This document shows, piece by piece, positions 13,908-52,772 of a stretch of 64,000 nt of DNA (position 1 is the stretch's first letter; each line of letters opens with the position of its first letter). The stretch spans positions 23,831-87,830 of the forward strand of contig JALWYQ010000037.1 of NCBI GenBank assembly GCA_027078365.1, given 5' to 3'. Under the pieces are notes generated by a model. The model searched no databases and was not told where the DNA came from. It was given only the letters and a program-made list of their open reading frames with translations. The position numbers were made by a program, and so were the translations under genes. This DNA comes from Phycisphaerae bacterium (GTDB lineage Bacteria > Planctomycetota > Phycisphaerae > Sedimentisphaerales > Sedimentisphaeraceae).

Positions 13908-13980
13908 GGGGCCGTAGCTCAGTTGGGAGAGCGCTACACTGGCAGTGTAGAAGTCGTGAGTTCGAGTCTCATCGGCTCCA
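13908..13980 (+). tRNA. tRNA-Ala (anticodon GGC)
   Basis: The 73-nt cloverleaf has acceptor GGGGCCG/CGGCTCC containing the G3-U70 wobble pair, the alanine identity element. The anticodon stem is CTACA/TGTAG with loop CTGGCAG, so the anticodon is GGC (Ala, GCC codons). The T-loop is TTCGAGT and the discriminator is A. CCA is not encoded. Its 3' 42 nt are part of the prophage attachment site, so the current 3' half was supplied by the phage. Confidence 0.97.
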
Positions 13981-13982
13981 TT
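13939..13982 (+). repeat. Prophage attachment site attL (44-bp direct repeat)
   Basis: These 44 bases, from the anticodon loop of tRNA-Ala to two bases past its end, recur without mismatch at 52729-52772. The flanking bases differ on both sides (A versus G upstream, C versus A downstream). Integration rebuilds a full tRNA here. Confidence 0.97.
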
Positions 13983-14108: not shown

Positions 14109-15356
14109 ATGCGCAGAAATTACACTTTCAAAGGGTCCATCTTTTGCCAACGTGGACGGCATTACTGGAAGGTTAAAGACCCCCAAACTCGCAAGCGCAG
14201 AACCTTTGCGCTTAAGCCTGCCGGAAGTAGATTCGCAACCTCAGACAAACGGATGGCCAAAGAGATAGCACAACGCAAATGGGACTCCTGGCAAGCGACC
14301 GGAGGCGGCTCGAATACGATTGGCGAGTTAATTGAACTCTACCTTAAATATGTCAAGGAAACTAACGCTCAAGATTCAAATCAGCCATACAAAATCGAAC
14401 TGGCTCTTAGGTTGATCGATAATGTTTCGCTACCGCCCTGCGAATACAGCCCTCTTCTTTTCGATGATACGCGTCAAAAACTAATCAACAAAGGAATAAC
14501 AGCACACACAATCAATACCAAAATGCGGTTTATTATTAAGATGTTTAAGTGGGCAGCCAGCCGAGAGATAGTATCACCACTTACGCCTTATGCTCTGGAA
14601 AATGTTGAAAAGGTAAAAAATAACCATCCAAAATTACGTAGAACAAAGATAAGACAGCCAGCACCGCTGGAAGATGTTCGCAGGACGCTTGCATATTTGC
14701 ATCCGATCTTACGAGCAATGGTGATAACTCAGCTCTATACCGGGACTAGGCCAAGCGAAATGTTACGAATGAAACCATGTGAGATTGACACCAGCGATGA
14801 GATTTGGATATATACGCAAAATAAACATAAAACTGACTATAAAGACGGAGCAAGACCGAGAATTATTCCGCTCAATAAACAAGTCCAAAATGTTTTAATC
14901 CCATTGATCGCGGAGAAAAAGCAGAGCGAATACCTCTTCTCTCCTGCAGATGGCAGAGAGATTGCCACGCAGATTCGTAGCGAGTGTCGCCAAACACCAA
15001 AGAGCTGCGGTAATAGAAGAGGCAAGTCTAGCAGCTATAGACCAGGAGGATTGCAGCTGCGTGAATGTTACGACCACGGATCATATCGAACAGCAATAAG
15101 ACGAGCCATTATGCGGCTTAATCGCGACCTTAAAGCCAGAGACGGCGACAGCTATGCACCAATGCCAATATGGACACCATATCAGCTCAGACATGCAGCA
15201 GCGACCGCGATTAATGCAGTTGATAACGTTGATGCTCTTGGTTTTGCTCAAGCGCTGCTTGGCCATAAAAATAGATCAACCACCGAAATTTACGCAAAAA
15301 TGGGACTGGAAAAGGCTAAAAGAGCAGCAGAGATTTTGAATGATATTGAGATATAA
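14109..15356 (+). CDS. int: Prophage tyrosine integrase
   Basis: This 415 aa tyrosine recombinase is probably responsible for integration at the adjacent tRNA-Ala. The catalytic residues are visible: Arg in TGTRPSEMLRM, the HxxR box in YQLRHAAATA (His-Arg order LRH) with LGHKNRST, and the nucleophile Tyr in TTEIYAKMG. The N-terminal region looks like the AP2/SAM-like arm-binding domain, rich in Arg and Lys. AAGGAG sits eight bases before the ATG. It is the only gene on the left edge and is read away from attL, opposite to the late genes that follow. Confidence 0.95.
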   Translation: MRRNYTFKGSIFCQRGRHYWKVKDPQTRKRRTFALKPAGSRFATSDKRMAKEIAQRKWDSWQATGGGSNTIGELIELYLKYVKETNAQDSNQPYKIELALRLIDNVSLPPCEYSPLLFDDTRQKLINKGITAHTINTKMRFIIKMFKWAASREIVSPLTPYALENVEKVKNNHPKLRRTKIRQPAPLEDVRRTLAYLHPILRAMVITQLYTGTRPSEMLRMKPCEIDTSDEIWIYTQNKHKTDYKDGARPRIIPLNKQVQNVLIPLIAEKKQSEYLFSPADGREIATQIRSECRQTPKSCGNRRGKSSSYRPGGLQLRECYDHGSYRTAIRRAIMRLNRDLKARDGDSYAPMPIWTPYQLRHAAATAINAVDNVDALGFAQALLGHKNRSTTEIYAKMGLEKAKRAAEILNDIEI

Positions 15357-16644: not shown

Positions 16645-19600
16645 TTATGTTGTTTGTTTTAGGCTTACCCAGTTGCCTACCCATCGATGATCTATGTCGT
16701 CGATGTAAGTTGTTTCTGTTTTTAATTTCCACCGCCAGTGCAAACGATATAGCTCTTCGCCAAATTTGTTGTCTAGCCAATCTTGTGCTGCTTGATATGT
16801 TGTTGCTGTATAGATGTTGATGTTGCACTTGACTCCACGCCTTGTTTCGTAAAGAAAATCAGTGTCTAATTGACTTGCACTTGTCCAGTCGTGGTAATCG
16901 TGTTGAATGGAATCATCGTCACATTCAATTTTAAATTCGAAATCGTAGTCGTCTGTCCATGTGTCTGACATGTTTGAAATTGATGTGTTTCGTAGCGATA
17001 CTGGCAAGCCGCCAAAAATGACAGACTGAACAACATTGTATTCTGTTGAAGAAGTAGAATTTATGTTGTTTGTAATTGGCGATGATTGTCTCGTTAACAA
17101 ATTAACGAATGCAGGTAGTGTTTCATTGCCTGCTGCATCCCTTGCAATTGTTTTTACTACCCACGCGCCACAGGAATAATACCAGTAGAGCCTGTTTTCT
17201 GAATATTCGTCAGCGTCAACATCAATGTCTGGAATGTTTATTAGGTCTGCTGGAGTTATCGAGAATTTGCGAGAGGTCTCCCAGTCGCCAACGAATTTTA
17301 ATTCTCCATATTGGTCTGTAATCTCGTGTTTAAAACTGATGTTTCTAGAGTCTCCACTTGGCCTATCTATCACCTGCATCAGTTCGCCTTCGATTTTGGT
17401 GATGTGGTAGTTTTTGCCACTATTGGCGTTGATTCCAACGGGGAATCTGTCAACCCATTTTGGTGGGTTTGGAATTGGACACAATGTGTCTGTGACGTCA
17501 AAGCTAGCAACTTTTTTGCGATTCCTGAAATCCTTAAACCACACAGAGTCTGCAACGCTATTCCAATCCCAACCCAGCAATACATCATCTGAAACTCTTT
17601 CGATTTTTGCAGGAGAAATCCCCTTACCATCTAATCGCTTATATCTACAATAATCACCATCGCCGCCAACACATGCCCATTCTGATCCATCAAGAGATTT
17701 TGTGCTATAGCTTTGGTTGTCCCAATCGTCGCCAGCATCTGGTTTTGATGGTTTTGTGGGGATTAGACAGCAAAACAGCGGATCATTGTCAGCCATATTT
17801 TCCAGCACCATCGAATGTATCACAGAAACGTTTGAACCTGTTCCAGATCCAGTCGAAATTGATCCTATCTCTAGCGAACCATCTACTGGAACGAGGGTTT
17901 GTTCTGAATATTCACTGTCGCTTGTGTCAACTTCATAAATTCTCAGTGCAAATTTTACAAAGGCATTTCTTGTCGCGGTCGCTGGAAAATCAGACTTATC
18001 TAATTTAACAAGTACCCCAGCGATATATGCTGGAGAATTCCAGTAGTAATCATTCCTAAACTCCCCACCCTTAATTATTCCTAGATCATATTCGCCTGTG
18101 TTATCGTTATATTTTTCAATCTGGTATTTACTTGCCCTACTCCAAACACCTCCAGTTGCGTAGCTGTAGAATGATCCTGCCTTTTCATCGTCTATTTTAT
18201 TAATAGAGGCTTTGTTACCTCTAGACAGTGCAATTCTTGCTGATTCATCTTCATCATATGCTGCATGAAATCTCCATTCTTCATCAACGTCGCTTTCGCA
18301 AAGCTCTCCTTTTTGAGATGAGCTAATACCTCTCATGCTAATTGACACGTTTTCTTTTGTGCCATAGTCGACGGATAGCACTCGCCAAACATGGTTTGTT
18401 ATGTTTGCCAGTAATTCGTAATCGAATTCTTGCAACGCTTCATTTTTTGGGTTATGTCGTAGCCTTGTCTCTTCGCAATCATAGACTATTTTGTTTGGAT
18501 CATAGTTTGCCGGGAAAGTTGTTGTGAAATTGTCAATAAAGCTCGCTATCCAATCATTAACATTGCTGTAGTTTTTAAGTTTGGCGTTTCCATAGCTCTG
18601 GCTGACAGGACAGCTCTCTTGAACTACCATCGTTCCTGGAGGCAAGCCTAAACTGTATTTCCAAATCTTTCTCCATGTGCCCTTGATGCTGGCAAAAAAA
18701 CTGTTAATTGCATCCATCTGAGCTTGATCGTTTTCTAAATTTTCTAGCTTGATAGATGCAAAAATATTTTCCGGGATGTATGGCAAATGTGTTACAAATG
18801 CCCAGTCGTACTCTCCAGACATCTCTAAGTATTTTTCAAATGTAGAGCCATTACAAGCAAACTCCATGTCGTTGTTGTTAGCGAAGAATACTCGGTTTGT
18901 AATGTCATTTATGTCGCCACCGTTGGCGATGTAGTTGTTTATCCAAACATCATTAATGTCGCTTGCTGTGCCACTGGAATCTATTGCTCGCATTGCACAG
19001 TTTTGTAGAGCTGCACAGTATTTTGCATCCTGAAAAGTGTATTCGTCGGCGTTTGGCTCCCAGTGATTATCGCTAGCTGGAACACCGATATTTAGGGCGT
19101 ATTGAGAGCTAACAAATGGCGGAACTGGATCATCGCCCATCCATCTCTGGTAGCCAAACCTGCTGCTTGGAAAAGCTACGCCCAGTGTTGAAGGGTTGGT
19201 TATTCCTAAGAGACCAAGTTCGTATGGTGTGTGTTGCCCTTTCAAATCGCCCGTGTCCATAGCAATTAAGTGCGGCAGGTACATCCTTGGGTCGTATTCT
19301 TGTGGTAAATATAAATAGCTCTTATGAAGCGAATGCTCTGAGCTATCGCTGTAGTCGTTGTAGCTGTTGAATTGTCTGAATCTTGCTGAGTTGTGGCTGA
19401 AGTGATAATACCTGTTTGGATTTGCAACTCTTATCCAGCCACCGGTAGTTAAGTTTCCCCAGCTGTTGTTGTTTTGTAATGACTCTTTTGCTTCTGCTGT
19501 GTCTAGCTGACATGGACAGCTGTTAATCAATGCTTCGTTGACGTCTTTTTGTTGCATTCCTGTTAGCGACCACGCATAGCATGGTTGCAAATAATACTCT

Positions 19601-36423: not shown

Positions 36424-37335
36424 CTATTTTTTATCGTTTTTTTCTGCTTGTAAGTCATTGTCCTGTAAGTCTTTATCTAACACCCCAAGAGTTGTACTAG
36501 TCGTTACGTTAATTATGTCCAGTTCATTTACCTTGTTAAAAGTAGAACCATCATCGATGTGTGAATAAATCGCCGTAGTGTTGATGCTTGAGTGTCCAAG
36601 TTGAGCCTGAACAAGCTGTAAATCTTTCGTTTGCCAGTTCGTGTGAGTCCCCAGTGTGTGCCTAAACTTGTGAGGGTACAATCCTTTCAATAACCCTGCC
36701 CTCCTGCCAATTGTCATCACTCTAAACCACAGCCCCTTGCGTGTGTATGGCTTGTGTCTCCTGTTATAAAGCAGCGGTTTCCTATAATTAGTCTCTCCAA
36801 CCCCCTTGGGTAACAATTTAGGGCGGACGTTTTCAACATAATAGGCGATCAATTCAGCCACTTTATTGGGAATCATCACAGTTCTAAGCTTATTCCTCTT
36901 TCCCCGAACCCAAACATAGGGTCTTTTGCAGTCTGGCTCTACAAAAGATGTCTGGTCCACTCTCAAGTTGCAAAGTTCACTATTGCGCAGTCCAGTAGCT
37001 AGTAGCATATTACAAATGAAAAGATCCATGAACCGAGTAGTGCTGGGCGAATGCTCGTACTCGGATGCAAGAAACACAATCAGCTTGCTAAGCTCCGATT
37101 TGGAAAGAAACTTGTCTGGCGTGATGATCCAGTTACTAACCGACTTCGCACCGCCCACCGAGATCCGCTCGATCTCAGCCGCCATCCTGCGAGTGTAGTC
37201 ATATCCCTTGCTGTATCGCTCAAGCATTTTCTCAAGGAAGCGAACATCACTCTTATAAAGCTCAAGCCTATCGGCATTCTGCAAAGCCTTGGCAACCTTC
37301 CTGCTCAAAGCCAAGCTTGGAACATACTCAGCCAT
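36424..37335 (-). CDS. Second tyrosine recombinase (XerC/D-like)
   Basis: The product is 303 aa. The catalytic set is visible: Arg in TGLRNSELCNLR, HxxR in PHKFRHTLGTH, LGHSSINTT, and Tyr in TAIYSHID. It begins with a SAM-like N-domain. GGGAGG lies seven bases before the ATG. It is placed between early genes and terminase, far from the att sites. It is distinct from the tRNA-linked integrase and could resolve dimers, invert DNA or be a remnant integrase. Confidence 0.9.
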   Translation of the reverse strand: MAEYVPSLALSRKVAKALQNADRLELYKSDVRFLEKMLERYSKGYDYTRRMAAEIERISVGGAKSVSNWIITPDKFLSKSELSKLIVFLASEYEHSPSTTRFMDLFICNMLLATGLRNSELCNLRVDQTSFVEPDCKRPYVWVRGKRNKLRTVMIPNKVAELIAYYVENVRPKLLPKGVGETNYRKPLLYNRRHKPYTRKGLWFRVMTIGRRAGLLKGLYPHKFRHTLGTHTNWQTKDLQLVQAQLGHSSINTTAIYSHIDDGSTFNKVNELDIINVTTSTTLGVLDKDLQDNDLQAEKNDKK

Positions 37336-38873: not shown

Positions 38874-38995
38874 GATCAACTCCTTAACTGTGATTTAAGT
38901 TCTCTTAATTGTTCTCATGCCGTGAGCTTGCGTGAAAGTCTCGTTACCAAGAAACATGCCCAACATTCCAACACCTCACATCAAAACAAAAAAAC

Positions 38996-39122
38996 GGCTC
39001 TGGCAGGAATCGAACCTGCACGTGGCATCACTCGGCTTCTACGCCACCGGCTTCGCGTGATTGCTGCCGATACGCATCACGTCTACTCTACTTCACCGCC
39101 TGCAATCCAATGCTACAGAGCC
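38996..39122 (-). ncRNA. tRNA-like RNA, 127 nt, oversized
   Basis: On the reverse strand, GGCUCUG pairs perfectly with CAGAGCC (7 bp acceptor). Directly stacked on it is a 5-bp T-arm (GCAGG/CCUGC) with canonical T-loop UUCGAUU. The interior (92 nt) does not fold as a normal cloverleaf. I see a weak D-like arm (GCA/UGC), a long arm (CGUGAU/AUCACG with GGC/GCC below it) and a 5-bp hairpin (GUGGC/GCCAC). The 3' end is followed by G and seven U, as in a terminator; CCA is not encoded. No clear anticodon. It could be a degenerate tRNA with a huge variable region or a tmRNA-derived structure. Confidence 0.6.
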
Positions 39123-39304
39123 AACCCTTTTCTTATGGCCGCCTTTGCCTCGCCAGTCAGCATCTTTAATTCTAAAGACGCATGGACCAGCCTAGCCCTA
39201 ACCTTCTTAATCATCTCTTTGCCCTCTAAATGAGTTAACGCCCCAACACACAAGTTTATGTCACAGCATACCTCATCAATCTTTTCAATCTGTTCTTTTG
39301 TCAT
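39113..39304 (-). CDS. Small early prophage protein, unknown
   Basis: The product is 63 aa (MTKEQIEKIDEVCCDINLCVGALTHLEGKEMIKKVRARLVHASLEL), predicted all-helical. GGAG lies eight bases before the ATG. Its stop codon (UAG) falls at nucleotides 8-10 of the downstream tRNA-like RNA, so processing of that RNA would truncate this mRNA. No family recognised. Confidence 0.6.
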   Translation of the reverse strand: MTKEQIEKIDEVCCDINLCVGALTHLEGKEMIKKVRARLVHASLELKMLTGEAKAAIRKGLAL

Positions 39305-44794: not shown

Positions 44795-46261
44795 ATGCAA
44801 AATTTTCATGATTGGAAAGAAAGAAAACTGTCAATTAACAAGCTCTTCCTAGATAACAAAAACCCTAGACTCCCCATATCGTCTAGGAACCTAACTCAAA
44901 CCGATCTCCTCTCTGAATTAGTAGCAAAAGACGATGTCTATGAGCTTGCCAAAACAATTACAGACAAAGGCTATATGCCTATTGAAAGTTTAATTGTTAT
45001 AGAAGAAAGCGGCAAAAAGGTTGTAGTGGAGGGCAATCGTAGACTCTCCAGCCTAAAATTGCTCCTAGATCCAAATAAAATAAGCGGGACAATATCAAGA
45101 AAGTTCAGAGCTTTATCACAGAAAATTGATGCCGAAAACATCAAGAAGGTGAAAGTAACAATTGCCCCTTCTCGCGAGGCCGCCAACGTCTACATTGCTA
45201 TGAAGCACACTAAAGGCGGCGGCACAAACAGGTGGAACCATATTGAACAAGCAAGATTCTACAAGGCAATATACAGCGAAGGAAAGACTACATCTCAAAT
45301 AGCAAAAGATTTCTCTATTTCAAACAGCGAAGTAATTAAAGAATTAAGACTACTAACCATGTACGAATTGGCTTGCGAACTAGACCTGCCAGAAGATATT
45401 GCTGCCAAAGTCAGAGACTCTCGCCACTTTCCATCTACCACTCTCGAAAGAATATATGAAAACCAAGACTATAGGGATTGGCTCAGCCTTGACTTCAAAG
45501 GCGAATCTATGGAATGTAAAACAAGTCGGGCTGAATTTAATAAAGGTTACTCTAGGATAGTAACAGATATTGCTTTAGGAAAAATAACATCTCGATCCCA
45601 CAACGACAGAGCTGCTGCCCAAGAATATCTTAAAGAGAATAAGGACTATAAGCCTAGCCCAAGCAAAAAAGAGAAATTCACTTACTCTTGTTTTGCCGGC
45701 TTTAAACTGCTGTCTGATAAAAAAACAGAGAAAGCATCAGCCCCCAAAAAGAAATCAGCTCCCCAAAAAAACCAGAGGCTGGTACCTAGCAAATTCACTT
45801 GCAATACCAGCTGTAACAGGCTTAACGACGTTTTCGCTGAATTCAAGAAAATGAAGATTAACGAAAGCCCTAACACGATAGCTATAATGCTTAGGTGTAT
45901 CCTTGAAATGTCACTTAATCATTACGTTGAAAAAATGGGCTACAGCAAAAAAATCGCCGAATTCTATAGAAGAAAACAGAAAAAAAAGAACGACTGGAGT
46001 CCGTCCCTTAATCAAGTCGTCAATTATCTTTTAGAGCAAGATACTATTGTTTGCGGTAAAATAGAACCTGAAGTAATAAAATCAATAAAAAATATGGCCA
46101 AAGACAATTCTACCTTCTATAATACTGACATGTTAAATGCATTCGTCCACAATAGATTTGTTATTGCTGACGAAAGAGTGCTAAGAGGTTTCTGGGAGCA
46201 ACTCGAACCTCTATTTAAAATCGTGTTGAATAAAGAATATTACGAAAACGAAGAAGGATAG
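44795..46261 (+). CDS. ParB/Srx-domain protein, cargo
   Basis: The product is 488 aa. The N-terminal ParB/sulfiredoxin-like fold reads NKLFLDNKNPRLPISSRN...DVYELAKTITDKGYMPIESLIVIEESGKKVVVEGNRRLSSLKLL. The GNRRL motif marks the nucleotide/DNA-processing site of this superfamily. An HTH-like helix pair follows (TTSQIAKDFSISNSEVIKELR), then a Lys-rich linker and a helical C-terminal domain with LNAFVHNRF. The family includes defence-associated nucleases as well as segregation proteins. GAGGG precedes the ATG. The dam gene starts 3 bases after the stop, so they form an operon. Confidence 0.78.
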   Translation: MQNFHDWKERKLSINKLFLDNKNPRLPISSRNLTQTDLLSELVAKDDVYELAKTITDKGYMPIESLIVIEESGKKVVVEGNRRLSSLKLLLDPNKISGTISRKFRALSQKIDAENIKKVKVTIAPSREAANVYIAMKHTKGGGTNRWNHIEQARFYKAIYSEGKTTSQIAKDFSISNSEVIKELRLLTMYELACELDLPEDIAAKVRDSRHFPSTTLERIYENQDYRDWLSLDFKGESMECKTSRAEFNKGYSRIVTDIALGKITSRSHNDRAAAQEYLKENKDYKPSPSKKEKFTYSCFAGFKLLSDKKTEKASAPKKKSAPQKNQRLVPSKFTCNTSCNRLNDVFAEFKKMKINESPNTIAIMLRCILEMSLNHYVEKMGYSKKIAEFYRRKQKKKNDWSPSLNQVVNYLLEQDTIVCGKIEPEVIKSIKNMAKDNSTFYNTDMLNAFVHNRFVIADERVLRGFWEQLEPLFKIVLNKEYYENEEG

Positions 46262-46264
46262 AGC

Positions 46265-47131
46265 ATGGCAAAAACCTATAGCCCACTTAGGTACCCAGGC
46301 GGTAAAAGTGCACTGATGCCCTTTTTGATGGAAACGATCTACTTGAATCAGCTTCAAGGGTGTACGTATATAGAACCTTTCGCCGGAGGTGCTGGCGCGG
46401 CTTTAGGACTGTTGTTCGGCGAGCATGTAGACAAGATTGTAATAAACGATGTTGATTTTTGTATATACGCCTTTTGGCATTCAATTATGAATAATACGGA
46501 TAAATTCCTTGCCCTCGTAAACGATACAGATGTCAATATTGAAGAATGGCACAAACAACGAGAAATATACAATAAGTGCGACAAGAGATCGTTATTGAAG
46601 GTGGGTTTTGCAACCTTCTTTCTCAATCGCTGCAATAGATCTGGAATTCTCAAAAAGGCAGGGCCAATAGGCGGTAAGGGCCAGAGTGGTAACTGGAAAA
46701 TAGATGCAAGATTCAACAAAAAAAATCTCATAGAACGCTTAGAGCGCGTCGCTTCCTACGGCGAGAGAATAGCTGTGTCCAATTTGAACGCAAACGACTT
46801 ATTGATAAACATCAACTCACAAAAGTCAAATGAGAATATATTAGTTTATCTAGACCCACCTTACTATAACAAGGGAGCAGAGCTATATATAAACCATTTC
46901 CTGCACGACGATCACGCCAACCTGTCCACCCAAATGTGCAAATACGAAAGCTTCAAATGGTTAATTTCTTATGACAATGTAACTCAAATAAAAGACATGT
47001 ATCAAGAAATGAACATAATTGAATTTTCACTAAACTACCACACCAGCAACCCTCGCAAGGGTAGCGAAATCTTGATCTTTAACGACACCATTAAAGTCCC
47101 TAGTACCCTTCTGGGTTCAAAGACAGCGTAA
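46265..47131 (+). CDS. dam: DNA adenine methylase (D12 class)
   Basis: This N6-adenine methyltransferase is 288 aa. It opens YSPLRYPGGKSALMPFL, has EPFAGGAGAALGLLF (SAM motif I), and YLDPPYYNKGAELY (catalytic DPPY motif IV). It is likely to methylate a short site such as GATC. AAGGA precedes the ATG within the end of the ParB-like gene. Encoded in a ParB-like/methylase operon within the prophage, it may protect phage DNA or form part of a restriction-type cassette. Confidence 0.92.
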   Translation: MAKTYSPLRYPGGKSALMPFLMETIYLNQLQGCTYIEPFAGGAGAALGLLFGEHVDKIVINDVDFCIYAFWHSIMNNTDKFLALVNDTDVNIEEWHKQREIYNKCDKRSLLKVGFATFFLNRCNRSGILKKAGPIGGKGQSGNWKIDARFNKKNLIERLERVASYGERIAVSNLNANDLLININSQKSNENILVYLDPPYYNKGAELYINHFLHDDHANLSTQMCKYESFKWLISYDNVTQIKDMYQEMNIIEFSLNYHTSNPRKGSEILIFNDTIKVPSTLLGSKTA

Positions 47132-47245
47132 GATGTCCACTTTCTCGTCATTTCTTGCCATAACTTAGCACAGAGAAACACGACACAACCAATTACAACC
47201 AAACAATTTACGAAACAAACAATCAAGACTCTTAGAAACACAGTA

Positions 47246-47869
47246 TTGCCCTACCATGAATTCGCAAAAGATCTTGTTAGAAACTGGCTAGTTGAACATA
47301 AATTTAAAGGTTGGAACAAAACGGAAACCACTGGCAGGCCCGTGACACAAGAAATGAAAGCAAAACAAGCCGCATTCATTGCGAAAGAGCTCGCAGACCA
47401 TTCAAAATGGCGGTCGCATGGAAGATCTTTGAAAATAAAAAATCTGAAAGAAATAGGATTGCGAATAACAAAGGTGGATGAAACCCCAGATTTTGCCGAT
47501 GTAGTGCATAGAATCCAAACGGTATGCGGGTTACTGTTTGACAACACCAGCATTTTTAAGGTTTTTGCAACCAAAGATCGCAAGATATTTAGGCAAGAGA
47601 TGCAAGGTGGCAGCAGGCATCAAGTTCCGCAGTTTCACAATAGCCCGTCTGCCGCATCAGTTGTGAAGTATTGCCCAAACTGCCGTACCAGACATAGTTA
47701 TTACGCCAAGTTCATTAATAATCCACAGATAGACGCTGATTTTGCAAGAAAAGGAGTGAAACCGCTCCCTAAAAATGCTAAAATAAAGTGTGCTTGTGGT
47801 GTTGAGATTGATTTATCTGAATGGAAAAAAAAAGTAGAAATGGATTTTGGAAGGAAGTTGATTTTTTAA
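47246..47869 (+). CDS. Possible 5'-truncated Clp-fold serine protease remnant with zinc ribbon
   Basis: The 207 aa product begins at a TTG. It has a helical segment (HEFAKDLVRNWLVEHKFKGW), then KELADHSKWRSHGRSLKIKNLKEIGLRITKV, and a C-terminal zinc ribbon (YCPNCRTRHSYY...IKCACGVEIDL). The SHGRxL plus LGL-x-(V/I) pattern resembles the C-terminal part of SDH/SppA-like Clp-fold proteases, but the half that would carry the catalytic Ser is absent. The frame stays open for about 80 bases upstream. Either a truncated remnant or an unrelated small protein. Confidence 0.4.
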   Translation: MPYHEFAKDLVRNWLVEHKFKGWNKTETTGRPVTQEMKAKQAAFIAKELADHSKWRSHGRSLKIKNLKEIGLRITKVDETPDFADVVHRIQTVCGLLFDNTSIFKVFATKDRKIFRQEMQGGSRHQVPQFHNSPSAASVVKYCPNCRTRHSYYAKFINNPQIDADFARKGVKPLPKNAKIKCACGVEIDLSEWKKKVEMDFGRKLIF

Positions 47870-47890
47870 TTTATATTGTGGGGCATAGAA

Positions 47891-48061
47891 ATGGAATTGG
47901 AAGGAACAACATTTATTGACGACACAGTGACAACTTTTCTAGTGGAGACAAAAGACGGCAAATTTGCCGAAGTAACAGCCTGTCCTCCGGATGTTATTAG
48001 GATGAAAGCAGAAAGAATAATGGTAGAAGATGAGTATTATAGATATAAAACCACAACTTGA
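47891..48061 (+). CDS. Small acidic protein, unknown
   Basis: The 56 aa product (MELEGTTFIDDTVTTFLVETKDGKFAEVTACPPDVIRMKAERIMV) is encoded 21 bases after the truncated protease-like gene and just before a strong terminator. The start at 47891 has a weak GGGGC site. It could be a partner or antidote of the cargo genes. No family recognised. Confidence 0.5.
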   Translation: MELEGTTFIDDTVTTFLVETKDGKFAEVTACPPDVIRMKAERIMVEDEYYRYKTTT

Positions 48062-48083
48062 TCATCTACAAACTTAGACACTT

Positions 48084-48112
48084 AAGACCCCATCTAATTG
48101 GGGTCTTTTTTT
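48084..48112 (+). terminator. Rho-independent terminator of the ParB-Dam cargo operon
   Basis: AAGACCCCA (48084-48092) pairs with TGGGGTCTT (48099-48107) around a 6-base loop, followed by a run of T to 48112. Confidence 0.9.
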
Positions 48113-48148
48113 ATGCGATAAGCGAATTAGCAAGCATCTAAACAATTA

Positions 48149-48301
48149 GCAATCAAAGACATGCTCCCAAAACTAACCAAAACGCTCAAGGATGAAATTT
48201 TCCGCAGCAAAGCCAAATCTATTGTAGATAAATCTTCTCAAGCTGCTCAAGCAGCCCAGCAGCAAACTCTGGACAAGAGTGGCTCAACAGGAGCCGCTTA
48301 A
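48149..48301 (+). pseudogene. 3' fragment of a paralogue of the gene at 44198
   Basis: In frame from 48149 the sequence reads AIKDMLPKLTKTLKDEIFRS then KAKSIVDKSSQAAQAAQQQTL and ends at a TAA at 48301. The first part matches AIKKMLPELTKSILSEIKGY of the 44198 gene, with about three quarters of the first 36 bases identical. A TAG lies just upstream in frame. It is a fragment left behind when the ParB-Dam block was inserted or duplicated, although a 46 aa start at 48161 cannot be ruled out. Confidence 0.65.
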
Positions 48302-48550
48302 TCTTTTCGGCTAGTAAATGTAGTTCAAAGTTGCGGTTTTCCATAACAATATATCAAAGAATCACAAAGCCAGATTAACCAAGCGACAAAAGAACAAAAC
48401 GGTCTTGCAAAAAGAATGCCTCGGCAGAACGAGGTCCACACCTATTTTAGCAGCCGCCTTTCTTTGTATTTGATTAAACCAACATCTCAGGGTAAAATGT
48501 GCGTCCATTAGAAACATTTACTTTATTGAACTTAGAGACCAAGAAATAAA
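48302..48550. other. Gap before the methyltransferase cassette
   Basis: No gene is seen. The 13-mer TGCCTCGGCAGAA (48417-48429) repeats that at 15411-15423. Upstream of the next ATG there is only AGAGACCAAGAA, a weak ribosome site, which may keep expression low. Confidence 0.35.
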
Positions 48551-51500
48551 ATGTCTTTTGCAAGTCGGCAATTAATTGAGAAATTTGATCTGACAAGAGT
48601 ATCTGCGCCCCTTTTTTTCCGTTCTGCGGATGATATAGAGAGATTTGCGGGCAAGCACCCTTATTCCCACCTAATGAGACGAGCATGGGAAACAATGCAT
48701 CTCAATGGCATACTATGCGTCGATGGCCGCCCTACAGTCTACTTCAAAGAAGTTAAACGCTTGGATTCTATTAGGCAACATAATCGTTATCGCAAATTCT
48801 GGAACCAGGGCCTGGCAACGCTTCTTGTTGTAAGCAGTCCTGACCAGGTTCAGGTTTTTTCGAGCTTGGCAAAGCCGGTCAAAGAAGATTCGCAAGTAGA
48901 CAATGAGGGTCGACTTGTAGAAATACTTGATTCTACCACTAAAGTACTCAACTTTGTCAAAAGGGTTCAGAGCGGACAGATATACAGAGACAAACCTCAG
49001 TGTTTCGACTCAAACCAGACGGTCGACAAGTTCCTTCTCCGGAATTTAAGCGAAGCACGAGATCAATTACACCAACATAACAATTTGAGTTATAAAGTTG
49101 TACACGCACTTCTTGGCCGTGTCATCTTCGCTTGCTACCTTATTGAACGCGGCATTATCGATGAAAGCCTTTTTGCTGAAGCAAATGCAAAGGGAATCAA
49201 AAGCCTTCACGAGCTTCTAACGCAATACGATAACACCAAAGCAAAAAAAATCCTCTACGACCTTTTCGCAGTATTACAGCGGCATTTCAATGGAAGCATG
49301 TTTGATGATACCGTCGAAAAAGAAAGGCCGCAAATTGACGACAAGCACATTTCGATTCTTCGTCGTTTTTTAATTGGTGAAGAATTAAAAAGCAAACAGT
49401 CTACTTTTGATTTCTGGGCCTATGATTTCAGCGTAATCCCAATAGAAACTATAAGCTCTATTTACGAAGAATTCCTTGGTGCTGAGGATAAAGCCGGAAA
49501 GAGAAAAAGCGGGGCATACTATACACCTAAACACCTTGCTGAAATGGTAGTCGATGTTGCTACCTCTGAATGGAACAGCCTTCTCGATAAGAGAATTTTG
49601 GATCCTGCCTGCGGGTCAGGAATATTCCTTGTGATAATTTTTAACCGGATAGCAGAGCAATGGCGATATAAAAACCCAGGAGTTCACAATATAACTCGTG
49701 CAGAGGCTCTATTAGAAATCATCAGAGAAAAGATATGCGGTATAGATGTCAACGAAACCGCTTGTCGTATTGCCTGCTTTAGCCTCTACCTTGCCTTCCT
49801 TGATCAATTGAAGCCAAGAGAAATTTATGAACTGGAAGCGAAACGTGGCAAGATACTTGACAATTTCCTCGCCCTGAAAGACAGTGCTTATTCCAACAAT
49901 GAATCCCCCGTCATTTTCGAAGGCGATTTCTTCGAAAATACTATACCAGCTGCAAAAAACTTTGACTTGGTTATCGGCAACCCCCCATGGGTAAGCAGGG
50001 GCAGGGCTTCAGACGCTAAGGCGTTAGACTGGTGCTTGAGCGAAGACAATAACCCGTATTTAGACGATGCCCCAAGGGCAAAGGCTGATCGTAAAAAATA
50101 TTTTCTTCCAGCCAGACAAATTGCTCATGCTTTTATGTGGAAATCTTCGGTTCATTTAAACGATAACGGTAAGGCATGCTTGGTTTTATCAACAAAGGTA
50201 CTTTTCAACAATTCTACAGATAAATTCCAGGCTGGCTGGTTCTCAAACGTTACTGTAGAGAAAGTTGTACAACTGTCCGACTGGCGACATATTCTTTTTG
50301 AAAACGCTGTCAGCCCATCTGTAATAGTTAAGTACAACGCCCGTAAGCCCAAAGACGATTATTCTATTGACTACGAAGTACCAAAGGTCAGTAGTTGTGA
50401 TCCGAGAAGAGGGGTCATTCATATATCACCTGAGGACCAAAAAACTATCCGACTATTCGACATACAGCAATATGCCAAGAAAAACAAAATCTCTATAGCG
50501 TGGAAAGAAAAGTTCTGGGGAACAAGGCGTGATAATCTCCTGCTGGATAGATTGCTTGAGATGCCCTGCCTCGGAGAACTGGTTAGTAAACCAAAGGAAA
50601 AAACAAACCTCTTCATAGCAAGCCAAGGCTTCCAGCCATTTAATGAGGAACGGTATTCGGAAGGCAAAAAAGCTTATGGTGAACCACAACCTGCTTGGTG
50701 GACACCAGAACAACTATATATTGATGCCAAGAAAATCGGGCCAAACTTAATCATAACCAAAAAAAATTGCGAAAAAGTAGGACCCAGATTTAAGAAATTA
50801 CACAGAATCCGGGACAAAAGAATATACACGCGTCCAAAGGTTCTAGTGAATAAGGGCTTCACGAAAGCTGTTTATTGCGACTTTGAAGCAATTTTCCAAG
50901 ACGCCATATATTCTATTTCTGGTTCACCATCTAATTATAGATTGTTAATGTTTATTGCAGCAGTTTTAAATTCAAAACTTGCTAAGTACTTTCAATTTCA
51001 CACCTCCGCTAATTTAGGTATAGAGAGGGAACAAATTTTTCCTACTGAATATAAACGGATTCCATTCCCTCTTCCTAAAGACACTGAAAACCCGGAAGAA
51101 TCAGATAGGATAATAAATGAAATAGCCATGCATATGAGTGATCTTAAAGCATTGATCGAGAAAGACTTTATGCTTCAAGAGGAAAAGGTAGCTTTGGCTG
51201 CTGAAAAAATAGAGGTTTTGCTATATAAATATTATGGAATATCTCAACATGAGCAGTTGCTCATTGATGATACTGTGAATATTTTCAAAAGTAGCATGAT
51301 GCCAACCTCCATCAATAGCAGAGTCAAAACCATCGGATGCCCTACCCCTAACGAAAGAAAAGGTTATGCAGAGTTGCTCTGCTCAATATTAAATACATGG
51401 GCCAAACGAAGCGATTTTCATGTGAATGGCAGGGTTGAATACTCAGAGATTTTAGGCACATCAATAGTAACACTTGTGAAATCTCATAAAACTGAGCGGT

Positions 51501-51730
51501 ACAGTGAGACGAAAACATCCGACGATCTGCATGCAGCTTTAAAGAACATTCAAAATGCCCTACCCAAAAAGATGGGTAAATTTGTTTATCACCGTCACCT
51601 GAAAGTCTTTGATGGGAATCAGCTTTATATTCTTAAACCACTTTCACGAAGGTACTGGACAAAAACAGCGGCTATAAATGATGCTGATGAAATTGCTGTA
51701 GCAATACTCTCTTCAGAAGGGAGTCGTTGA
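48551..51730 (+). CDS. Type IIG/Eco57I-like adenine DNA methyltransferase
   Basis: The product is 1059 aa. An N-terminal domain of about 300 aa (LCVDGRPTVYFKEVKRLD, WNQGLATLLVVSSPDQVQVFS) precedes the methyltransferase. The SAM motif is ILDPACGSGIFLVIIFNRIAE, and the catalytic NPPW is in FDLVIGNPPWVSRGRA. A target-recognition region follows (about 680-900), then a helical C-terminus. The N-terminal D-x10-15-ExK-like DGRPTVYFKEVK may be a relic nuclease site but lacks a clear ExK. The next gene overlaps it (TGATG) and encodes a PD-(D/E)xK fold, so the pair is probably one restriction-modification-like system. Confidence 0.85.
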   Translation: MSFASRQLIEKFDLTRVSAPLFFRSADDIERFAGKHPYSHLMRRAWETMHLNGILCVDGRPTVYFKEVKRLDSIRQHNRYRKFWNQGLATLLVVSSPDQVQVFSSLAKPVKEDSQVDNEGRLVEILDSTTKVLNFVKRVQSGQIYRDKPQCFDSNQTVDKFLLRNLSEARDQLHQHNNLSYKVVHALLGRVIFACYLIERGIIDESLFAEANAKGIKSLHELLTQYDNTKAKKILYDLFAVLQRHFNGSMFDDTVEKERPQIDDKHISILRRFLIGEELKSKQSTFDFWAYDFSVIPIETISSIYEEFLGAEDKAGKRKSGAYYTPKHLAEMVVDVATSEWNSLLDKRILDPACGSGIFLVIIFNRIAEQWRYKNPGVHNITRAEALLEIIREKICGIDVNETACRIACFSLYLAFLDQLKPREIYELEAKRGKILDNFLALKDSAYSNNESPVIFEGDFFENTIPAAKNFDLVIGNPPWVSRGRASDAKALDWCLSEDNNPYLDDAPRAKADRKKYFLPARQIAHAFMWKSSVHLNDNGKACLVLSTKVLFNNSTDKFQAGWFSNVTVEKVVQLSDWRHILFENAVSPSVIVKYNARKPKDDYSIDYEVPKVSSCDPRRGVIHISPEDQKTIRLFDIQQYAKKNKISIAWKEKFWGTRRDNLLLDRLLEMPCLGELVSKPKEKTNLFIASQGFQPFNEERYSEGKKAYGEPQPAWWTPEQLYIDAKKIGPNLIITKKNCEKVGPRFKKLHRIRDKRIYTRPKVLVNKGFTKAVYCDFEAIFQDAIYSISGSPSNYRLLMFIAAVLNSKLAKYFQFHTSANLGIEREQIFPTEYKRIPFPLPKDTENPEESDRIINEIAMHMSDLKALIEKDFMLQEEKVALAAEKIEVLLYKYYGISQHEQLLIDDTVNIFKSSMMPTSINSRVKTIGCPTPNERKGYAELLCSILNTWAKRSDFHVNGRVEYSEILGTSIVTLVKSHKTERYSETKTSDDLHAALKNIQNALPKKMGKFVYHRHLKVFDGNQLYILKPLSRRYWTKTAAINDADEIAVAILSSEGSR

Positions 51731-52389
51731 TGTCAGTAGCTATAGTTGGAGAGGCTGGAGGCTGGAAGAAGGATCTGTTTCCAGACGAGCTAATCCCTGA
51801 TATATTGGAATTTGTCGTGGAAACTTGGAAGGCTTTCAACAAACCCTGCCGCCTTGACCATGAAGTTCTGATTTCTAAGGCCTTTACAAAAAAACTTCAG
51901 CAAGAAAAAAACATACAGAACAAGTTGCCATTCCAGATACGACCTGAAATTGAAACTTCCGATTCTCCAATGGGAAAGGATGGCCGAATAGACATCTGTT
52001 TTATCTTTATGGGTACTACAAGGGAAAATATTTACTTCGCTTTTGAGTGCAAAAGATTGCGTATTCCCCAACAAGCACCCAAAAAGCCTGTGACTAACAA
52101 TAGTGACTATGTTGGGGAGCAAGGCATGATGTGTTTTGTTACAGGAAAATATAGCAGTAACGTAAAACATGGAGGAATGATCGGATATATTATGGATGGC
52201 AAAACCACCTCTGCTATCACCTCTGTCACAAAACTTATAAATAAAAAACGGTCAGACCTTAAGCTATCCCTCGGATCAAGCCTTGACGCTTCCTCAATCA
52301 TGGCAAAACATCCAAATATAAAGGAAACCAGACACAACCTCCTCAACAGAAAGGAATTTACAATCCATCATGTTTTCCTCCCTGTATAA
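51730..52389 (+). CDS. PD-(D/E)xK nuclease-like partner of the methyltransferase
   Basis: The 219 aa product carries GKDGRIDICFIFMGTTRENIYFAFECKRL: Asp followed about 15 residues later by Glu-Cys-Lys on the next strand, as expected of a PD-(D/E)xK nuclease core. GEQGMMCFVTGKYSSNVKHGGMIGYIMDG follows. The ATG shares bases with the upstream stop, implying coupled synthesis. It is probably the cleavage subunit. An alternative is a catalytically inactive scaffold. Confidence 0.7.
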   Translation: MSVAIVGEAGGWKKDLFPDELIPDILEFVVETWKAFNKPCRLDHEVLISKAFTKKLQQEKNIQNKLPFQIRPEIETSDSPMGKDGRIDICFIFMGTTRENIYFAFECKRLRIPQQAPKKPVTNNSDYVGEQGMMCFVTGKYSSNVKHGGMIGYIMDGKTTSAITSVTKLINKKRSDLKLSLGSSLDASSIMAKHPNIKETRHNLLNRKEFTIHHVFLPV

Positions 52390-52728: not shown

Positions 52729-52772
52729 CTGGCAGTGTAGAAGTCGTGAGTTCGAGTCTCATCGGCTCCATT
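52729..52772 (+). repeat. Prophage attachment site attR
   Basis: Perfect copy of the 44-bp attL repeat. Only the 3' part of a tRNA is present (no acceptor 5' strand or D arm), so it is not a functional tRNA. It is the displaced host 3' end. Confidence 0.97.

Follow-up and report, generated by a model that had tools for sequence, protein, structure and literature searches.

Bacteriophage T4 encodes two stable RNAs, C and D, which have been described as 'of yet unknown functions' (PMC9697503). RNA C, also called species 1 RNA and encoded by rnaC, is a late transcript that is visible on northern blots (PMC9697503; see also PMC12685909). The literature searchable here gave us no account of the structure of RNA C. 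The rnaC gene is 139 nt long (NC_000866 70908-71046; 1409-1547 of locus L314 in our collection). Its two ends pair as an acceptor stem (CGAUUCG/CGUUUCG), which is joined to a T-arm (CCGGG-UUCGAAU-CCCGG). A variable arm of 10 bp with the loop CGUCAA lies one base ahead of the T-arm. A long arm ends in a hairpin with the loop UUGACG, this is the exact complement of CGUCAA and the two loops can form a kissing helix of 6 bp.

BLAST finds relatives of rnaC in 720 phage records. Diverse relatives were collected from these, and 12 distinct sequences were aligned for covariation. Across the 12 sequences 91.9% of the pairs in the proposed structure form, and 18 of its 33 pairs have changed on both sides. 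Covariation scores 0.396 for this structure; shuffled alignments give 0.160, with none of 500 reaching the observed value, and slid partners give 0.112 at most. The covariation covers the acceptor, both arms, the T-arm and the kissing helix. The latter is fully paired in all 12 sequences and includes two doubly changed pairs: most relatives carry UUGACG/CGUCAA, Yersinia phage fHe-Yen9-01 has UUGAUG/CAUCAA, and the Klebsiella phages BM7 and Potts1 have UUGGCG/CGCCAA.

Two further features of the rnaC family were seen in passing. The two central U.U pairs of the acceptor are kept in all aligned relatives except that of the Yersinia phage, where these positions are paired. In Salmonella phage Melville and Enterobacter phage EnC15 (L319 and L321) much of the inner long arm has been swapped for unrelated sequence; both RNAs keep the acceptor, the variable arm and the kissing letters. 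This suggests that the long arm is modular. T4 rnaD was considered as a further RNA of the plan and was rejected, it has no T-arm.

An RNA of similar plan is predicted in a prophage of a Phycisphaerae bacterium. The window, by which we mean the whole stretch of 64,000 nucleotides that was analysed, contains this prophage complete with both of its ends. The features of the RNA and its setting are as follows.

13939-52772, no strand: prophage holding the RNA, 38.8 kb, with a 44-bp direct repeat at its ends.
14109-15356: integrase, beside tRNA-Ala.
39113-39304, minus strand: 63-aa open reading frame with a plausible ribosome-binding site; its 3' end with the UAG stop shares 10 nt with the 5' end of the RNA.
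38996-39122, minus strand: tRNA-shaped putative non-decoding RNA of 127 nt with its 5' end at 39122, from sequence and descriptor scans.
39116-39122, minus strand: 5' strand of the acceptor stem, GGCUCUG, seven Watson-Crick pairs with 38996-39002.
39115-39114, minus strand: U8-A9, directly 5' of the D-arm-like hairpin.
39102-39113, minus strand: D-arm-like hairpin GCA[UUGGAU]UGC, from sequence and constrained fold.
39048-39098, minus strand: long arm at the anticodon position, from the constrained fold.
39098-39095 and 39051-39048, minus strand: base of the long arm, CGGU/GCCG, from the constrained fold.
39081-39076 and 39061-39056, minus strand: hairpin of the long arm, CGUGAU/AUCACG, with a 14-nt loop at 39075-39062.
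39066-39070, minus strand: predicted kissing sequence UCGGC in the long-arm loop, complementary to 39036-39032.
39022-39047, minus strand: long variable arm GUGGCGU/AUGCCAC (39047-39041 and 39028-39022) with the loop AGAAGCCGAGUG, from the constrained fold.
39032-39036, minus strand: predicted kissing sequence GCCGA in the variable-arm loop; the same plan is seen in T4 rnaC and in a second prophage RNA described below.
39003-39019, minus strand: T-arm GCAGG-UUCGAUU-CCUGC, five Watson-Crick pairs, adjoining the 3' strand of the acceptor.
38996-39002, minus strand: 3' strand of the acceptor stem, CAGAGCC, pairing with GGCUCUG.
38988-38995, minus strand: G at the discriminator position, then U7 (38994-38988).

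On the minus strand from 39122 the letters read GGCUCUG-UA-GCAUUGGAUUGC-A-GGCGGUGAAG...GAUGCCACGU-GCAGGUUCGAUUCCUGC-CAGAGCC-G-UUUUUUU. They confirm what an earlier note on this DNA had described, a perfect stack of acceptor and T-arm with the loop UUCGAUU followed by U7. CCA is not encoded, and the same is true of the host tRNA genes. The D-arm has 3 bp and places GG at the position of G18-G19, and the variable arm has 7 bp and lies 2 nt ahead of the T-arm. Judged by its letters the RNA thus contains an acceptor stem, a T-arm, a D-arm-like hairpin and the bases of the tRNA elbow (U8, the G18-G19-like GG, the T-loop UUCGA and G53-C61). A scan for 5-bp T-arms with a TTCRA loop on a 7-bp acceptor returned only two sites in the window, the tRNA-Ala and 39122-38996. 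The lenient search with the Rfam tRNA model (RF00005) gave 14.2 bits at the site, half of the gathering cut-off of 29. The description in the earlier note is therefore correct, since the site is unique beside tRNA-Ala and gives this weak match to the tRNA model.

The same note found no readable anticodon arm in the 92-nt interior and proposed that long arms form instead. The interior indeed holds no recognisable anticodon arm (5-bp stem, 7-nt loop and U33), and two long arms were found when the RNA was folded with the acceptor, D-arm and T-arm held fixed. This constrained fold contains the long arm, the variable arm and the loops with UCGGC and GCCGA. ARAGORN at default settings reports no tRNA at the site; ARAGORN and Rfam list only tRNA-Ala in the window. 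ARAGORN's intron mode yields a forced tRNA-Ser(CGA), whose intron would be 38 nt long. An intron-bearing tRNA was rejected because this model has a poor anticodon stem and a canonical arm results from no single excision; protein-spliced tRNA introns are not known in bacteria. The RNA shares the acceptor, D-arm, variable arm, T-arm and elbow bases with class II tRNAs (Leu and Ser), but it differs from them in having no anticodon arm and in falling below the Rfam tRNA cut-off. Modelling of single sequences supports a structure in which a longer arm takes the place of the anticodon arm and its loop kisses that of the variable arm. It likewise supports a compact tRNA-like body that would be unable to read codons.

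The energetics of the window RNA are less distinctive. Its overall stability is ordinary (z -1.07), and the unconstrained minimum-energy fold differs from the tRNA-like fold and prefers other pairings. Without constraints the T-arm has a pair probability of 0.08, and holding the RNA to the tRNA-like fold costs 1.6-1.7 kcal/mol relative to the unconstrained minimum. Compared with shuffled sequences, the variable arm reaches p of about 0.04-0.05 both here and in the second prophage RNA, the arm of the window RNA having been chosen post hoc. The kissing helix UCGGC/GCCGA of 5 bp, also chosen post hoc, taken alone reaches p 0.02-0.05 against shuffles. A descriptor of the whole plan, covering acceptor, T-arm, variable arm and loop-loop complementarity, gave 31 loose and 4 strict matches in 1500 random 64-kb windows, or 0.0027 strict matches per window. 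The thresholds of this descriptor were set with the window RNA in view, its rarity is therefore supporting rather than conclusive.

The T4 RNA and its relatives, found in Straboviridae and Marfavirus, resemble the window RNA in several respects. Both are encoded by phages, are similar in length and carry an acceptor of seven positions on a canonical T-arm. In both, 1-2 nt separate a long variable arm from the T-arm, a long arm takes the place of the anticodon arm, and the loops of these two arms are complementary. With its acceptor, T-arm, variable arm and long arm the window RNA fits the rnaC plan, for which the lengths range from 124 to 139 nt. There are also differences: rnaC has no D-arm and two conserved U.U pairs in its acceptor, whereas the window RNA has a D-arm and a perfect acceptor, and in T4 rnaC adjoins tRNA genes whereas the window RNA stands alone in its prophage. 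The likeness is one of architecture, a covariance model built from the 12 rnaC relatives detects no sequence similarity. That model did not match the window RNA in a search of 582 kb; when confined to the site it gave 10.8 bits and aligned exactly to 38996-39122.

The second prophage RNA was found by a blind structural scan of prophages that share the terminase of the window prophage. It is 124 nt long (G016:C8:27224-27347, 17725-17848 of locus L176) and comes from a genome (G016) of the same bacterial order as the window's host, in a prophage with related terminase and portal. It lies in the early region of that prophage, which includes a helicase and an integrase next to tRNA-Pro. The acceptor is AGCUCCG/CGGGGCU, and this is followed by a tRNA-Leu-like D-arm, a 10-bp arm at the place of the anticodon arm, a 9-bp variable arm and a T-arm. 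The minimum-energy fold is essentially this plan (z -2.78). The loops of its two arms, GCUAAC in the long arm and GUUAGC in the variable arm, are perfect complements (p 0.01 against shuffles). No single inner excision would make this RNA a normal tRNA. It shares the acceptor, D-arm, long arm, variable arm, T-arm and predicted kissing loops with the window RNA, but the two are unrelated in sequence outside the tRNA-like body, have other flanking genes and differ in the tRNA-Leu-like nature of its D-arm. In a search of 1.12 Mb with a model of this RNA, the window RNA comes third (23.8 bits, E 0.007); the match arises mainly through the tRNA-like body, and an ordinary tRNA-Leu exceeds it.

The descriptor run on the random windows above was fitted to rnaC and has five helices, the kissing run among them; it was also applied to both strands of 2.75 Mb of sequence. 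It returned the rnaC loci, the G016 RNA and the window RNA, together with two weak chance matches.

These comparisons bear on whether the window RNA is a phage tRNA gene that has decayed or been interrupted by an insertion in its anticodon arm, which would be functionless and would keep its ends intact because the decay is recent. We regard this as unlikely, while giving it appreciable weight. Ordinary tRNA-Met genes are frequent in related prophages, and tRNAs broken up by a short repeat do exist, at locus L124. The window RNA has no close relatives and its unconstrained fold is not tRNA-like, which also speaks for this reading. Against it stand the perfect acceptor and T-arm, the G016 RNA, which repeats the plan in a different sequence with an unusually stable fold, and T4 rnaC, which shows that the plan is under selection. 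The RNA is not a simple insertion, since removal of any single inner segment fails to restore a canonical anticodon arm.

A Lachnospiraceae metagenome-assembled genome (JAFXJR010000099.1, L124 6553-6750) contains two tRNA-like genes split by the same hairpin repeat of about 33 nt (ATGAGTCTTGAAAAAGACT...ACAGCAATTTT), which suggests a tiny mobile element that inserts into tRNA genes. In terminase-related phages a tRNA-Met(CAT) recurs near the terminase and head-joining genes (L052 11497-11570, L051 7682-7755, L056, L059, L236, L242, L244 and L246), it is absent from this place in the window prophage.

The prophage contains portal and terminase genes. The two copies of its terminal repeat (13939-13982 and 52729-52772) are the 3' part of tRNA-Ala(GGC). 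The RNA sits between the 63-aa open reading frame, for which family searches gave no match, and a 97-aa phage protein (phrog_1828). We looked for a promoter or local terminator hairpin for the RNA and found none. Related prophages have the late genes in common but do not conserve the early region in which the RNA lies. No recognised tRNA nuclease is found among the prophage genes. The cargo beside the right att site (44795-52389) matches PD-Lambda-5 A and B and also includes a type IIG restriction-modification protein of 1059 aa. A second tyrosine recombinase of 303 aa is encoded at 36424-37335, between a MazG-like gene and the terminase and away from the att sites; searches of viral contigs gave no relatives.

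The 3' ends of tRNA genes serve integrases, and the 303-aa recombinase lies 1.7 kb from the RNA. The half formed by the T-arm and acceptor could in principle derive from a tRNA 3' end at a former att site, or be a chance likeness, with the 5' strand pairing by coincidence. This reading is improbable: it leaves the 5' strand, U8-A9 and the D-arm-like part without explanation, the acceptor GGCUCUG is absent from all 29 host tRNAs that were compared, out of 42 located, and strict descriptor matches are rare by chance, as given above. The prophage's own att repeat is elsewhere, at the tRNA-Ala (13939/52729), and the RNA is not the att site of this prophage.

The earlier note had also raised a shrunken tmRNA-like RNA, and had proposed a check against tRNA and tmRNA models. 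The tRNA model stays below its cut-off, as described; for tmRNA there is no Rfam match at E<=10 and none in ARAGORN at relaxed settings. A reduced tmRNA would likewise have a large inner domain enclosed by tRNA-like ends, and the segment UUGGAUUGCAGGCGG loosely recalls the tmRNA D-domain, as the note had pointed out. The failure of both tools and a total of only 127 nt, which leaves 92 nt inside the acceptor and T-arm, leave this reading almost no credit. In architecture the RNA comes nearer to T4 rnaC and to a prophage RNA than to tmRNA.

Bacterial Y RNAs of the YrlA type combine a tRNA-like module with a Ro60-binding stem. The exact 24-mer of T-arm and acceptor in the window RNA occurs in two GTDB genomes. 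One of them is a Pontibacter, where the 24-mer belongs to a YrlA-like RNA whose acceptor, GGCUCUG/CAGAGCC, is identical. One inner match of 11 nt, in one species, has p 0.02. YrlA and the window RNA have in common tRNA mimicry and, in Pontibacter, identical acceptor and T-arm letters, but YrlA is a circular permutation of the tRNA order and partners with Ro60, and the window RNA is not permuted. Searched at E<=10, the Rfam model RF02553 does not match here, the family-consensus Y strands do not match the RNA, and a Ro60/TROVE gene is found in none of 161 genomes of the order nor in its own genome, which is 86% complete. This lead was rejected on topology, the absence of Ro60 and weak Y-strand similarity, and we consider a YrlA-type RNA very improbable. 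The weak RF02553 matches in the order all fall under the cut-off, and the one that was inspected, in the RNA's own genome, spans two adjacent tRNA genes. In Pontibacter mangrovi (NZ_VFRQ01000007.1, L125 6600-7084) there are two tandem YrlA-like RNAs, which score 42-52 bits against an Rfam cut-off of 69.

Relatives of the window RNA were sought widely. None that are close were found at the DNA level, in viral contigs by DNA patterns or in phages and plasmids by BLAST, and viral contigs reached through neighbouring proteins contained no prophage relative. Covariance models of the window and G016 RNAs found no further prophage relatives in the 161 genomes of the order, and a pattern for expanded tRNA-Leu-like bodies returned only G016 itself from 397 genomes. 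A scan of 80 more terminase-related viral loci (1.03 Mb) added no convincing member. Long candidates from a model termed R2 were rejected, they resemble tRNA 3' halves as found at att sites, or noise. Covariation support for the kissing plan thus comes from the relatives of T4 rnaC, the window RNA itself having no close relatives.

The window element is probably a tRNA-derived, non-decoding phage RNA with the architecture of T4 species 1 RNA. Stated in full, we give a probability of roughly 0.55 to the reading that the prophage encodes a non-coding RNA unable to decode, which descends from a tRNA with a long variable arm or closely imitates one, and which has kissing arms and the rnaC architecture. 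Of the three ideas in the earlier note the tRNA mimic is the best supported, the elbow invariants are kept and the anticodon arm is replaced; its function as a tRNA mimic or decoy is what we infer from this form, and it may act as a nuclease decoy, as also raised there.

Host tRNA enzymes would cut the RNA from phage mRNA, with RNase P acting at 39122/39123 and a 3' nuclease trimming near G38995, and CCA may then be added. The product would be a stable tRNA mimic during infection, engaging tRNA-handling proteins or tRNA-directed nucleases instead of decoding. Most likely tRNA enzymes would recognise the features they bind in its elbow and acceptor, and the kissing structure would exclude decoding. 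As bait the RNA might target nucleases, modification enzymes or synthetases.

We also entertain, at somewhat less than even odds, that a single widespread and unrecognised class of phage RNA includes T4 species 1 RNA together with the two prophage RNAs; in this class the anticodon arm would have become a long arm that kisses the variable arm. The prophage RNAs suggest that phages outside the T4-like group also have the kissing-arm design. If the class is real, the window and G016 versions, which have kept the D-arm, would tie the T4 RNA to tRNA. Covariation gives T4 RNA C a testable architecture, with tRNA-like ends and kissing of two arms, and an RNA that has been an orphan for decades is now open to direct structural and genetic tests. 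If these RNAs are tRNA mimics, their targets, such as phage-defence tRNA nucleases, modification enzymes and synthetases, would become searchable.
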